The notes under the pieces: model-generated
Database searches by the model: none
What the model was told of the DNA's origin: nothing
Seen by the model: only the letters and a program-made list of their open reading frames with translations
From: Rhizobium bangladeshense
Lineage (GTDB): Bacteria > Pseudomonadota > Alphaproteobacteria > Rhizobiales > Rhizobiaceae
Assembly: GCF_017357245.1 (NCBI RefSeq)
Contig: NZ_CP071612.1
Span: 1,615,001-1,679,000, forward strand
Reading direction: 5' to 3'
Length of the DNA: 64,000 nt
Part shown: positions 25,269 through 64,000 of the stretch, one piece after another
How positions within the stretch are numbered: position 1 is the stretch's first letter
How the letters are laid out: every line of letters starts with the position of its first letter
Position numbers and translations under genes: made by a program

Positions 25269-25309
25269 TGCCGCTTGCCGCAGGCAGCGCTTTGTTTTAC
25301 GAAAGATGC

Positions 25310-25455
25310 CGTTCTCAGGGCGGGGTGAAAGTCCCCACCGGCGGTAAGGGCTGCGGCCCGAGCCCGCGAGCGCCTTCTCAAGCTTCGGCAGGGGAGGGGT
25401 CAGCAGATCCGGTGCAATTCCGGAGCCGACGGTATAGTCCGGATGAAAGAGAATG
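25310..25455 (+). promoter_or_regulatory. FMN riboswitch (RFN element)
   Basis: All hallmark segments of the FMN aptamer are present in order: CAGGGCGGGGTGAAAGTCCC, then ACCGGCGGTAAGGGC, AGCCCGCGAGC, CAGATCCGGTGCAATTCCGG, AGCCGACGGTATAGTCC, and GGATGAAAGAGAATG. FMN binding normally switches off riboflavin synthesis or uptake genes. It lies about 95 bases before the transporter gene at 25548, so that gene should be repressed when flavin is plentiful. Between aptamer and gene, a GGCAG/CTGCC hairpin near 25470-25490 may be part of the switch. Confidence 0.96.
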
Positions 25456-25547
25456 AGCATGCGCCAGCGGGCAGGGGACTGCCGGCGTCCGCGTGTCATC
25501 GCCTCATGCGTCCTGATTTATGTTGGTCCCTGTTTTGGATGGAAGAC

Positions 25548-55761: not shown

Positions 55762-55794
55762 CAAAAAAAAACAAGGCTGGAAGCCTTGTTTTAA
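55762..55794. terminator. Bidirectional terminator
   Basis: AACAAGGCT (55770-55778) pairs with AGCCTTGTT (55782-55790). Nine A precede the stem core and TTTTAA follows. On the plus strand it ends the nuo-birA-rnj-mce-DUF1467 transcript; on the minus strand it has an even longer T-run, implying a leftward transcript from the 55.8-56.2 kb gap. Confidence 0.8.
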
Positions 55795-55985
55795 GTATCG
55801 CGTGATCTGTAACCGTTGCCGGGGCTGCGACGAGCGCGCCTAAGATCTGATCCTCCCAAGACTTGACCGCGAATTCGGCAAGAATTTAACTTCCTGCCTG
55901 TTTTGTGAGCTAAAGCTAGCTCAAACATTGGGCTTTGTCATTAGCTTTTTTTGCATTTTTGCTACACTCCAGCAAAATTTTTCTG

Positions 55986-59534: not shown

Positions 59535-59999
59535 TTACGGGATGACAAGCCCGCCGCGGTAATCGAGCACATAAGCCTTCCGGCCGCCGACCATGATGCA
59601 TTCATGGCCGCTGAATCGGTCGCAGCCGCCTTCGCTGCGGTCGATATAGCGGCCGAACGGATGATCGAATTCCATTCCGCCGAGAAAGCGGCCCTCCCCA
59701 TACATCGCCGACAGCGCCGCCTTGATCACAGTTCCGGCGGCACTGCCATCGATGAGATCGGCCGCGACGACGCAGCCGAAATAATTCATCGCCCAGACGG
59801 GTTCGCCGGCAAACCACACCACTTCCTGTCCGGCGAAATCGGTGCCGCCGACGTAACTGTCGAGATATGACCAGTCGCCGCGTTCATAGCCAATATCGTG
59901 AGCGCCCGGCCGGCAGGGCGGGCGAGGCACGCCCCCGCCGATATAGGTCGCGGCCTTAGCCTCTACGATGAAGTCGTTCAGCATAGCGGTGTCGAGCAT
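59535..59999 (-). CDS. DUF5680 domain protein
   Basis: Cytoplasmic protein of 154 residues resembling the DUF5680 family: NDFIVEAKAATYIGGG at the start, RPGAHDIGYERGDWSYLDSYVGG, then VVWFAGEPVWAMNYFGC. Some relatives are fused to XRE-type DNA-binding domains; this one has none. The function is unknown. The ATG at 59999 is 9 bases after GGAGG; an ATG at 60005 is in frame but too close. It is divergent from the small SOS-like gene at 60305. Confidence 0.75.
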   Translation of the reverse strand: MLDTAMLNDFIVEAKAATYIGGGVPRPPCRPGAHDIGYERGDWSYLDSYVGGTDFAGQEVVWFAGEPVWAMNYFGCVVAADLIDGSAAGTVIKAALSAMYGEGRFLGGMEFDHPFGRYIDRSEGGCDRFSGHECIMVGGRKAYVLDYRGGLVIP

Positions 60000-60247
60000 T
60001 ATCATCTTCCTCCCTGCCTCACCTGATGCCGATATAGCAGACTGCTGAGAACATAAGAAAAACAAAACGGTTCGCATTGCTAGAAGCCAGAGGCAGGCAT
60101 CAGGCACAGGATGCGTTGGCCCGACCGGTTCGTCCAGGCGATGCAGGGCGGGTTGGAGAGCATGTCAAGACTGGCGCGATGCGAGGTTCGATTCGCAGCT
60201 CGCGAGCGGCCCTTTTTCAAAGGCAAGCGGGGAGGAAAAGATTCCTG

Positions 60248-60276
60248 TTGACATTGGAACATAGATGGAACAAATT
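60248..60276 (+). promoter_or_regulatory. Promoter of the 28-aa peptide gene, with LexA box
   Basis: TTGACA (60248-60253) is a perfect -35; 17 bases on lies a poor -10, CAAATT (60271-60276). A LexA-type box, GAAC-N7-GAAC (60257-60271), fills the spacer, where a repressor would block RNA polymerase. Confidence 0.5.
60257..60271 (+). promoter_or_regulatory. LexA (SOS) box, alphaproteobacterial type
   Basis: GAAC-ATAGATG-GAAC matches the direct-repeat GAAC-N7-GAAC (equivalently GTTC-N7-GTTC) bound by LexA in alphaproteobacteria. It lies between the -35 and the start of a 28-codon gene and about 250 bases before dnaE. The motif is short, so a chance match is possible, but the location is right. 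Confidence 0.6.
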
Positions 60277-60304
60277 GAAAACATAACGAGTAAAGGAGAG
60301 CCAG

Positions 60305-60391
60305 ATGACTGACATGATCCGTGATATCGCAGCATTCACCTCCATCGCAATGTTCGTTGCCAGCTTCTCGCTTATCGTCATCGCGATCTAA
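60305..60391 (+). CDS. 28-residue single-pass membrane peptide
   Basis: A tiny gene with a strong AAAGGAG site 6 bases before ATG. The product is 28 residues: a short charged head MTDMIRD, then one hydrophobic segment (IAAFTSIAMFVASFSLIV, about residues 8-28) that could just span the inner membrane. A LexA-type box overlaps its promoter. In size, topology and apparent SOS control it resembles SidA of Caulobacter, a 29-residue SOS-induced division inhibitor, or TisB-type peptides; homology is not shown. dnaE starts 117 bases downstream on the same strand. Confidence 0.7.
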   Translation: MTDMIRDIAAFTSIAMFVASFSLIVIAI

Positions 60392-60508
60392 AGTTTTCGG
60401 GGGATCGCATGGCAGTCATGCGGTTCGCACGCCGGTCTTCTTCTGGACATCATCGCCCTCAATGCCGACAATGCGTCCGATTCATTTCGGCTGATTGAAA
60501 GGCATATC

Positions 60509-63500
60509 ATGGCGGAGACGCAAACGGGTTCAATTGGTGAGGCGACCGGTGGCGAACCGGGTTTCATCCACCTGAGGGTCCACTCCGCCTATTCGCTGCT
60601 TGAGGGCGCCTTGCCTCTGAAGAAGATCCTCTACAAGGCGACCGGCGACAGCCAGCCGGCGATCGCCATCACCGACACCAACAATCTCTTTGTCGCCCTT
60701 GAATTCTCCCAGAAGGCAATGGACGAGGGCCTGCAGCCGATCATCGGCTGCCAGGTCTCGATCGACATGGAAGACGGATTGGAAAGTGAAAAGCGCGGCG
60801 GTCAGCAGGCACTGATCAAGCTGCCGTCGATCGTTCTTCTTGCGGCGACGGACGCCGGTTACGAAAGGCTGGTTGATCTCGTCAGCCGCGCCTATCTCGG
60901 CGGTGATAGCAACCAGGCCATTCATATCAGAGCCTCCTGGCTGGAAGAGTCAGGCACGGAAGGGCTGATCGCCTTGACCGGCGCCCTGACTGGGCCGGTT
61001 GACGCGGCTTTCAGGGAAGGCCATCCCGCTCAGGCGGAAGCCCGGCTGCTCACGCTGAAGCGTCTGTTCGGCGACAGACTCTATGTCGAGCTGCAGCGGC
61101 ACGGCACCTACGACAAGCGGCACGAGCAGAAGATCGTCAGGCTTGCTTACACGCATGACCTGCCGCTCGTCGCCACCAACGAAGCCTTCTTTCCGACTCG
61201 CGACGATTACGACGCCCATGATGCGCTGATGGCGGTTGCGCATAACGCCATCGTCTCCGACGACAGCCGTTTTCGCCTGACGCCGGATCACTACCTGAAG
61301 AGCCGGGCCGAGATGGCCAAGCTCTTTCCCGACCTGCCGGAAGCGCTCGATAACACGATCGAGATCGCCAAGCGCTGCTCCTTCGTGTTGAAGACGCGAA
61401 AGCCGATCCTGCCGCGCTTCACTGGCGCCACCGACGATGCCGAGGAGGCCGAACGCGCCGAGGCGGGCGAATTGCGCCGCCAGGCGGTGGAAGGGCTGGA
61501 CATGCGGCTTGCCACGCTCGGAATGTCGCCGGGTTACGAGGAAAAGGATTACCGCGAGCGCCTCGAGTTCGAACTCAGCGTTATCGAGCGCATGCGCTTC
61601 CCGGGTTACTTCCTGATCGTTTCCGACTTCATCAAGTGGGCCAAGCAGCATGATATTCCCGTCGGTCCGGGCCGTGGTTCGGGCGCCGGTTCGCTGGTCG
61701 CCTATGCCTTGACGATCACCGATGTCGACCCGCTGCGCTTCTCGCTGCTCTTCGAGCGCTTCCTCAATCCGGAACGCGTCTCGATGCCTGACTTCGACAT
61801 CGACTTCTGCCAGGACCGCCGCGAAGAGGTGATCCGCTACGTTCAGGCGAAATATGGGCGCGAGCAGGTGGCGCAGATCATTACCTTCGGTTCGCTGCAG
61901 GCACGCGCCGCACTTCGCGATGTCGGCCGCGTGCTGGAAATGCCTTACGGCCAGGTCGACAAGATCTGCAAACTCGTGCCGAACAATCCGGCCAATCCGA
62001 CGCCGCTCTCCAAGGCGATCGAGGAGGAGCCGAAGCTGCAGGAGGAGGCGGCGAAGGAGCCGGTGGTCGCGCGTCTGCTCGACATCGCCCAGAAGATTGA
62101 AGGGCTTTATCGTCACGCCTCGACGCATGCTGCCGGCATCGTCATCGGCGACCGCCCGCTGTCCAAGCTCGTGCCGATGTATCGCGATCCGCGCTCCGAC
62201 ATGCCCGTCACCCAGTTCAACATGAAATGGGTGGAGCAGGCAGGCCTCGTGAAGTTCGACTTCCTCGGCTTGAAGACGTTGACCGTGCTGAAGGTCGCCG
62301 TCGATTTCGTCGCCAAACGCGGCATTAAAGTCGATCTTGCGGCCATTCCGCTCGACGACAAGAAGACTTACGAAATGCTGTCGCGCGGCGAGACGGTCGG
62401 CGTGTTCCAGGTGGAAAGTGCCGGCATGCGCAAGGCGCTGATCGGCATGAAGCCGGACTGCATCGAGGACATCATCGCGCTGGTGGCGCTCTACCGCCCG
62501 GGCCCGATGGAGAACATCCCGGTTTATAATGCCCGCAAGCACGGCGAGGAGGAGGTGGAATCGATCCACCCGATGATCGACCATCTGCTCAAGGAAACCC
62601 AGGGCGTCATCGTCTATCAGGAACAGGTGATGCAGATCGCCCAGGTCCTGTCCGGCTATTCATTGGGTGAAGCCGATCTTCTGCGCCGCGCCATGGGTAA
62701 GAAGATCAAGGCCGAGATGGACCAGCAGCGTGAGCGCTTCGTCGATGGCGCGGTGAAGAACGGTGTGAAGAAGCCGCAGGCCGACGTCATCTTCGATCTC
62801 TTGGCGAAATTCGCCAATTACGGCTTCAACAAGTCGCATGCCGCCGCCTATGCCATCGTCTCATACCAGACGGCCTATATGAAGGCGCATTACCCGGTCG
62901 AGTTCCTCGCCGCTTCGATGACGCTCGACATGTCCAACACGGAAAAGGTCAATGATTTCCGTCAAGATGCCAAACGCCTCGGCATCGAGGTGATCGCACC
63001 TTCGGTGCAGACCTCCTTCCGCCATTTCGAGACCGGCGACAACCGGATCTACTATGCGCTGGCCGCCCTCAAGGGCGTCGGCGAATCCGCCGTCGACCAT
63101 ATCGTCGAGGTGCGCGGCGACAAGCCCTTCGCCAGCATCGAGGATTTCTGCCTGCGCATCGATCCGCGCCAGGTGAACCGCCGCGTGTTGGAAAGCCTGA
63201 TCTATGCCGGCGCCTTCGATTGTTTCGGCACGGACCGCGCCCAGCTTGCCGCCGGGCTCGACCGCATCCTCGGCTATGCCCAGCGCGCCCAGGAAAACAA
63301 GCTGAGCGGCCAGTCGGATATTTTCGGCAGTACATTGACGTCAGGTCCGGAGAAGATCTCCTTGCCGCCTTATTCACCCTGGCTGGCTTCGGAGCGGCTG
63401 CTCAAGGAATTCCAGGTGCTGGGCTTCTATCTCACGGCCCACCCGCTCGATTCCTACAGCAACATCCTGCAGAAGATGCGCGTGCAGACCTTTGCCGAGT

Positions 63501-64000
63501 TCTCCGCGGCGATCAAGCAGGGGGCTGCCAATGCGCGCCTTGCCGGCACCGTCATCTCGAAGCAGGAGCGCAAGACCCGCACCGGCAACAAGATGGGCAT
63601 CATCGTCTTTTCCGACTCGTCGGGCCAGTTCGAAGCCGTGCTGTTTTCGGAGATGCTGAACCAGTATCGCGATGTGCTCGAGTCCGGAAAATCCTTCTTG
63701 CTGACCGCGACCGGCGAGGAGCGGCCGGAGGGCATCGGCCTGCGTATCCAGACGATCCAGTCGCTCGAGGAAAAGTCGCTGCAGATGCAGAAGGCGCTGC
63801 GCGTCTATGTCAGAGATTCCGGACCGCTGAGAATGGTTGCCGGCCATCTGAACGCCAAGGGCGACGGCCTGGTTTCCTTCATCGTCATCAAGGAGGAGGG
63901 CAAACGCGAGGTGGAAGTGGCGCTGCCGGAGAAATACCGCATCACGCCGGAGATCGCAGCCGCCCTTCGCGCCGCCCCTGGCGTCGTTGACGTCGAACTT
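60509..64000 (+). CDS. dnaE: DNA polymerase III alpha subunit (3' end beyond window)
   Basis: Replicative polymerase subunit; the frame is open from ATG 60509 to the window edge (1164 codons), close to the full length of rhizobial DnaE1. An N-terminal PHP domain starts at FIHLRVHSAYSLLEGA; the metal-site Asp of E. coli-type sequences is already an Ala here. The polymerase catalytic aspartates are D428, D430 and D432 in MPDFDIDF, following GPGRGSGAGSLVAYAL. Later come QGVIVYQEQVMQIAQVLSGY, the HhH region, and an OB-fold near 1000-1080. GAAAGG gives the ribosome-binding site. It may be partly cotranscribed with the 28-aa gene. Confidence 0.97.
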   Translation, partial: MAETQTGSIGEATGGEPGFIHLRVHSAYSLLEGALPLKKILYKATGDSQPAIAITDTNNLFVALEFSQKAMDEGLQPIIGCQVSIDMEDGLESEKRGGQQALIKLPSIVLLAATDAGYERLVDLVSRAYLGGDSNQAIHIRASWLEESGTEGLIALTGALTGPVDAAFREGHPAQAEARLLTLKRLFGDRLYVELQRHGTYDKRHEQKIVRLAYTHDLPLVATNEAFFPTRDDYDAHDALMAVAHNAIVSDDSRFRLTPDHYLKSRAEMAKLFPDLPEALDNTIEIAKRCSFVLKTRKPILPRFTGATDDAEEAERAEAGELRRQAVEGLDMRLATLGMSPGYEEKDYRERLEFELSVIERMRFPGYFLIVSDFIKWAKQHDIPVGPGRGSGAGSLVAYALTITDVDPLRFSLLFERFLNPERVSMPDFDIDFCQDRREEVIRYVQAKYGREQVAQIITFGSLQARAALRDVGRVLEMPYGQVDKICKLVPNNPANPTPLSKAIEEEPKLQEEAAKEPVVARLLDIAQKIEGLYRHASTHAAGIVIGDRPLSKLVPMYRDPRSDMPVTQFNMKWVEQAGLVKFDFLGLKTLTVLKVAVDFVAKRGIKVDLAAIPLDDKKTYEMLSRGETVGVFQVESAGMRKALIGMKPDCIEDIIALVALYRPGPMENIPVYNARKHGEEEVESIHPMIDHLLKETQGVIVYQEQVMQIAQVLSGYSLGEADLLRRAMGKKIKAEMDQQRERFVDGAVKNGVKKPQADVIFDLLAKFANYGFNKSHAAAYAIVSYQTAYMKAHYPVEFLAASMTLDMSNTEKVNDFRQDAKRLGIEVIAPSVQTSFRHFETGDNRIYYALAALKGVGESAVDHIVEVRGDKPFASIEDFCLRIDPRQVNRRVLESLIYAGAFDCFGTDRAQLAAGLDRILGYAQRAQENKLSGQSDIFGSTLTSGPEKISLPPYSPWLASERLLKEFQVLGFYLTAHPLDSYSNILQKMRVQTFAEFSAAIKQGAANARLAGTVISKQERKTRTGNKMGIIVFSDSSGQFEAVLFSEMLNQYRDVLESGKSFLLTATGEERPEGIGLRIQTIQSLEEKSLQMQKALRVYVRDSGPLRMVAGHLNAKGDGLVSFIVIKEEGKREVEVALPEKYRITPEIAAALRAAPGVVDVEL

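Follow-up and report, generated by a model that had tools for sequence, protein, structure and literature searches.

The 28-codon gene directly before dnaE in the window, i.e., the whole stretch of 64,000 nucleotides of Rhizobium bangladeshense that was analysed, is very probably the Rhizobium orthologue of sidA, which LexA would keep silent until DNA damage sets it free, and which would encode a peptide probably holding the FtsW/FtsI/FtsN septal synthase inactive. The peptide belongs to a known kind, SidA, the apparent range of which is much widened, and the new part of the analysis is that the SidA locus itself appears to have stayed next to dnaE in numerous Rhizobiales as well as in Caulobacteraceae. 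It is likely that SidA is an ancient alphaproteobacterial checkpoint peptide, older in its place beside dnaE than the divergence of Rhizobiales from Caulobacterales, and that its shortness kept it from notice. For the rhizobia, it could supply the SOS division inhibitor that has been missing, and it might even be used in bacteroids when these cease to divide and go on copying their DNA. The initial annotation had compared the peptide with SidA and had proposed a new checkpoint element. The comparison turned out stronger than proposed, and the claim of novelty was given up in favour of the name rhizobial SidA, because the place at dnaE, the length (28 vs. 29 amino acids), the LexA box, and an ungapped core are shared.

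The peptide gene and its surroundings

All elements of the locus lie on the forward strand. The −35 element of the peptide promoter, TTGACA (60248–60253), was read directly and has the consensus form that had been claimed for it; the sigma-70 consensus scan of the window did not report this promoter. In the promoter spacer follows the LexA-type box GAAC-N7-GAAC (GAACATAGATGGAAC, 60257–60271, direct reading), overlapped by a degenerate repeat GAAC-N7-AAAC that is offset by 11 nt downstream (60268–60282). The likely −10 element CAAATT (60271–60276) is weak and was placed by eye from its spacing of 17 nt past the −35 element; its counterpart in locus L060 reads CATAAT (by eye). The Shine-Dalgarno sequence AAGGAGA (60293–60299, direct reading) precedes the 28-codon gene at 60305–60391 (ATG at 60305, TAA at 60389–60391; product MTDMIRDIAAFTSIAMFVASFSLIVIAI), so that the description as a 28-codon gene with a strong ribosome-binding site was confirmed by direct reading. 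The gene was taken from the list of open reading frames and is proposed as a sidA orthologue based on conservation and profile comparisons. Its product carries a single hydrophobic segment from about residue 8 onward, as had been described, and the charged head of that description is modest (D3, R6, D7). Scans against NCBIfam at E-values up to 1 and against Pfam at E-values up to 0.1 retrieved no family for the Rhizobium peptide. A weak match of another family member to TIGR03068 of NCBIfam (E 0.011) was under the cut-off and was dropped. Being tiny, the gene is easily overlooked by gene callers.

Downstream, dnaE has a promoter-like element of its own, TGGACA-17-GACAAT (60444–60472), which was identified by the sigma-70 consensus scan and by conservation: in the pattern TGGAC-N18-GAnAAT, both TGGAC and GAnAAT showed hardly any variation among 78 distinct intergenic sequences, with the C of GACAAT less conserved than the rest. 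The gene dnaE, encoding the DNA polymerase III alpha subunit, starts with the ATG at 60509, reaches the window end at 64000, and continues beyond it. A second dnaE-type gene is present elsewhere in the genome, and the copy in the window is taken to be the replicative dnaE1 on account of its better Pfam score and longer frame. Given its own promoter-like element, dnaE is probably independent of the peptide promoter, with read-through possible. Past the peptide stop (60392–60440), an inverted repeat similar to CGCATGGCAGTCATGCG was noticed by eye. Its counterparts in L055 and L060 are better paired, and L055 has a second hairpin with T residues behind it (by eye). The inverted repeat at 60392–60440 may represent a terminator between the peptide gene and the dnaE promoter.

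The peptide search retrieved a match in all 37 genomes of the genus, the own genome included (E ≤ 5.6e-6), and in the other families of the order in one of 24 genomes (G049), where the match is weak and directly precedes dnaE. Conservation of frame and box in sister species had been set in advance as the test of the proposal, and both were found: all 80 dnaE loci of the Rhizobium group contain the 28-amino-acid frame, and 79 of them have the exact GAAC-N7-GAAC, with a varying 7-nt spacer, at the corresponding position, the sole exception being L060 with GAAC-N7-AAAC (by eye). Across 81 peptide genes (62 distinct, window included), pN/pS is 0.17, and 13, 4, and 25 of 28 sites are variable at codon positions 1, 2, and 3, respectively. 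The peptide gene is a conserved coding frame under protein-level purifying selection, and a chance open reading frame was rejected on these codon statistics. Residues are conserved across the peptide members, without a run of one residue. Among 71 distinct promoters, aligned after exclusion of L060 and of one row of differing length, TTGAC is invariant, and drift is seen in the box spacer and in most of the flanking sequence; the invariance of the GAAC halves in this alignment is not evidence, because that pattern had been the criterion for including a row.

The box was present as claimed and is, taken alone, not significant: the window holds one exact box vs. 1.96 expected from shuffling, and the genome holds 170 vs. 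141 for the reversed pattern, i.e., hardly an enrichment. The box alone was therefore rejected as evidence, and its conservation has to carry the case for its being real; with the relatives included, the observation clearly exceeds what chance would give. The published LexA motif of Caulobacter, GTTCN7GTTC, is the same motif (PMC12700426). In agreement with the earlier assignment to the alphaproteobacterial LexA motif, the box was found in the own genome upstream of lexA, ssb, an ogt-type methyltransferase gene, and the DNA-repair radical-SAM gene TIGR03916 (rSAM_link_UDG), the proteins of all four scoring above the NCBIfam cut-offs. Genes for a UvrD/PcrA-like helicase and a PRK09951-like protein, both with matches below the cut-offs, also follow a box, and one short peptide downstream of another box had no NCBIfam match. 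These results refer to seven downstream proteins, scanned from 20 boxes that were chosen by A/T-rich spacers among 100 of the 170. The box before the peptide gene is a LexA-type, repressor-type site to which LexA would bind.

Distribution of the locus and relation to Caulobacter SidA

When 247 genomes of the family were searched with a profile, matches were obtained in 189 at the loose threshold of E ≤ 10; chance presumably accounts for many of the weaker matches. From the searches, 98 loci were assembled (30 from the peptide search, 28 from the profile search, and 40 hand-picked from the profile list with E-values from 4e-10 to 0.25), with one locus doubled, L015 and L113 being identical in position. 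The box lies within 100 nt in 90 of the 98 loci, eight being without an exact box, and dnaE follows on the same strand in 93, with box and dnaE together in 86. The distance from the peptide ATG to dnaE ranges from 156 to 621 nt. Four of the five loci without dnaE found nearby in the ~1.6 kb fetched (L152, L155, L166, L180) keep the box, so that box and peptide appear to form a unit; in these, either the peptide has been relocated or dnaE displaced. In L180, the neighbour of peptide and box is a frame identified by eye as carB-like. The fifth, L169, holds a boxless relative (E 4.4e-4) among phage-like frames (by eye), which may be a mobile copy or may match by chance.

A test starting from dnaE instead of the peptide was performed on three sets of loci. 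The order set consisted of 40 dnaE loci fetched of 117 matched genomes, 39 of them from 28 other families and one (G132) from the own family but without a peptide match; the set of other orders consisted of 40 loci fetched of 124 matched genomes of the class; and for Caulobacteraceae, 30 of 199 genomes were hand-picked, 29 of which matched dnaE. A locus was counted if a box was located within 500 nt of dnaE and a hydrophobic ORF of 22–40 amino acids began 12–90 nt after the box. In the order set, 24 of 40 loci had the box and 23 the box with the hydrophobic ORF, so that 17 failed the combined test; the respective counts for the other orders were nine and eight of 40, with 32 failing, and for Caulobacteraceae 21 and nine of 29. 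Three altered patterns used as controls gave 0–1 boxes and no pairs in the order set (0–2 boxes and no pair over both 40-locus sets), and shuffling gave 0.28 boxes and 0.00 pairs in the order set (about 0.3 and 0.00 over both). The motif on the opposite strand gave four boxes and two pairs in each 40-locus set, which are possibly real reversed sites, and a control with a spacing of 6 gave two boxes and one pair in the Caulobacteraceae set.

The peptide profile built from Rhizobiaceae only was also searched against six-frame translations of the regions upstream of dnaE in 109 other loci, where it matched 43 segments at E ≤ 0.5. All 43 are in forward frames (19 in the order set, three in the other orders, and 21 in Caulobacteraceae). 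The individual E-values are often weak, the best in Caulobacteraceae being 0.0039 and that of the G870 ORF 0.25. A further profile (A3), built from 13 of the 29 Caulobacteraceae loci with some sequences trimmed to an inner Met, matches all 29, 13 of them by construction. For the A4 profile, 20 of 29 candidate loci were picked by eye on the basis of position and hydrophobicity, and their starts were cut back to an internal Met, so that the tie of this profile to A2 is somewhat favoured; it gave one reverse-frame match (L198, E 5.8e-5).

For a direct comparison with SidA, genomes G870 and G851 were used, both of which contain the MipZ sequence of PDB 2xj4, which we take to be that of C. crescentus, at 100% identity over 260 residues. 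In G870, an ORF of 29 codons precedes dnaE, which begins 35 nt past its stop, and the box GAACATCTTGTGAAC starts 64 nt before its ATG; the counterpart in G851 differs in two residues. This ORF was taken as SidA because of its length, its box, and its neighbours. The gene sidA is presumably CC1927. It has the locus tag CCNA_02004 (PMC10769358), Caulobacter dnaE is CC1926 (PMC1839093), and SidA is described as a 29-amino-acid inner-membrane protein that inhibits division via FtsW (PMC4211646). The adjacency to dnaE is a feature found in this analysis, and the cited papers do not define SidA by it. The Rhizobium peptide and the G870 ORF share the ungapped core R6-[DE]7-x-x-A10-[FL]11-x-S13-[IV]14-x-x-F17-V18. 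Comparison of the Rhizobiaceae and Caulobacterales profiles with hhalign gave 78.5% (1.7e-5) over 19 aligned columns, and comparison via other Rhizobiales families gave 97.4% (1.3e-11) and 91.9% (7e-7), the intermediate set having been picked by eye. Shuffles of SidA that preserve hydropathy classes reached the real score in 55 of 20,000 trials, and for two of 13 Caulobacterales members shuffles reached the score in more than 10% of trials. The sequence comparison gives moderate support for homology to SidA, over a short alignment. In both organisms the gene product is tiny with one hydrophobic segment (28 and 29 amino acids), an exact GAAC-N7-GAAC lies upstream, and dnaE follows directly. They differ in that W19 is common in Caulobacterales members, whereas the Rhizobiaceae peptides are without W19 and mostly start with M-T-D, and in that the gap to dnaE is longer in Rhizobium and holds the separate dnaE promoter-like element. 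No report linking SidA to rhizobia was found in the literature searched, including the available portions of PMC4211646, PMC12700426, PMC13384398, PMC10957082, PMC13396833, PMC4117421, and PMC9578287; the original SidA paper (Modell 2011) lies outside this literature.

In Sinorhizobium meliloti 2011, ribosome profiling revealed a novel translated sORF25 in the dnaE1 5′-UTR, and sORFs such as this one were suggested as possible uORFs (PMC10117765); the main text of that paper makes no mention of SOS, LexA, SidA, or FtsW. Genomes nearest to a stretch of S. meliloti pSymB were G104, G196, and G260 (80–83%). The Sinorhizobium-like G104 and G260 have a 28-amino-acid member before dnaE with two overlapping boxes (L146, L149). 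Like this member, sORF25 lies before dnaE, the two being compared by position.

Alternative explanations and proposed mechanism

As an alternative, the peptide frame could be a uORF or leader peptide that adjusts the expression of dnaE through its own translation; its place before dnaE, the suggestion made for sORF25, and the separation of only 35 nt in Caulobacter would speak for this. It is very unlikely, given that a nearly invariant promoter-like element belonging to dnaE lies 3′ of the peptide gene, that the distance to dnaE varies as widely as given above, that amino acids are conserved without a single-residue run, and that four box-bearing members have no dnaE found nearby. The same loci and the same element bear on the notion that the LexA box serves dnaE itself, i.e., an SOS boost of the replicative polymerase with an incidental frame. 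Adjacency in the same direction and possible read-through are compatible with such an operator, but the box stays with the peptide in four of the five loci without dnaE found nearby, dnaE has a separate promoter-like element, and the peptide frame is under purifying selection; the box as a dnaE operator was rejected on the first two grounds, and this explanation as a whole is extremely improbable.

The initial annotation had named TisB as an analogue along with SidA. TisB acts on the membrane, and a peptide of this type would depolarise it and slow growth without being directed at the divisome. E. coli TisB and DinQ, the latter also reported to act on the membrane (PMC3567139), resemble the Rhizobium peptide by description as SOS-controlled single-helix peptides, and a single hydrophobic segment with a LexA-type box would fit them. 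Similarity and synteny favour SidA instead, and no antisense RNA partner was matched by Rfam at the gathering threshold in the window, a point of little weight. Of the two analogies, that to SidA held by place, length, box, and ungapped core, and a TisB- or DinQ-like action is very unlikely. Other damage-induced membrane division inhibitors (DidA, YneA, SosA, ChiZ), compared by description, are different proteins, YneA having a LysM domain and DidA being SOS-independent; a block of septal wall synthesis at FtsW/FtsN is likely the shared action (PMC4211646, PMC13396833).

For the rhizobial SidA, the following sequence of events is proposed. By occupying GAAC-N7-GAAC in the promoter spacer, LexA would silence the peptide gene, and after DNA damage, RecA-driven cleavage of LexA would release it. 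The single-helix peptide would then insert into the inner membrane and keep the septal synthase inactive until LexA recovers, with FtsW/FtsI/FtsN probably being its target by analogy. Control by LexA and damage, membrane insertion, action on FtsW, and division arrest are known for Caulobacter SidA (PMC4211646), from which it is predicted that LexA binds before the Rhizobium gene, and that its peptide is induced, enters the membrane, and acts on the corresponding target to arrest division. If this is true, a likely SOS division inhibitor would be named for a large group of plant-associated bacteria, and a function would be suggested for a translated, unexplained sORF of S. meliloti. The divergent SidA sequences would furthermore constitute a natural library for mapping how a 28-residue helix stops FtsW, and a checkpoint role in rhizobial bacteroids, which enlarge without division, would become testable.

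Additional sites around the locus

A full second overlapping box, i.e., three GAAC repeats 11 nt apart, was observed in L115, L118, L136, L146, L149, and L160, and the third GAAC repeat in the window appears as a decayed version of this arrangement; double overlapping boxes possibly confer tighter repression. Farther upstream of dnaE, a second exact GAAC-N7-GAAC occurs in 29 of the 80 Rhizobium-group loci, in 27 of these at −385 to −475. This position approximates the expected promoter of the divergent DUF5680 gene (59535–60005, reverse strand), the identity of which was derived from the window only, and the counterpart of the second upstream box in the window is degenerate (GAACATAAGAAAAAC, 60049–60063). 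Elsewhere in the window, Rfam matches were obtained for the sRNA ar9 (55763–55906, reverse strand) and for an FMN riboswitch (25307–25458, forward strand).
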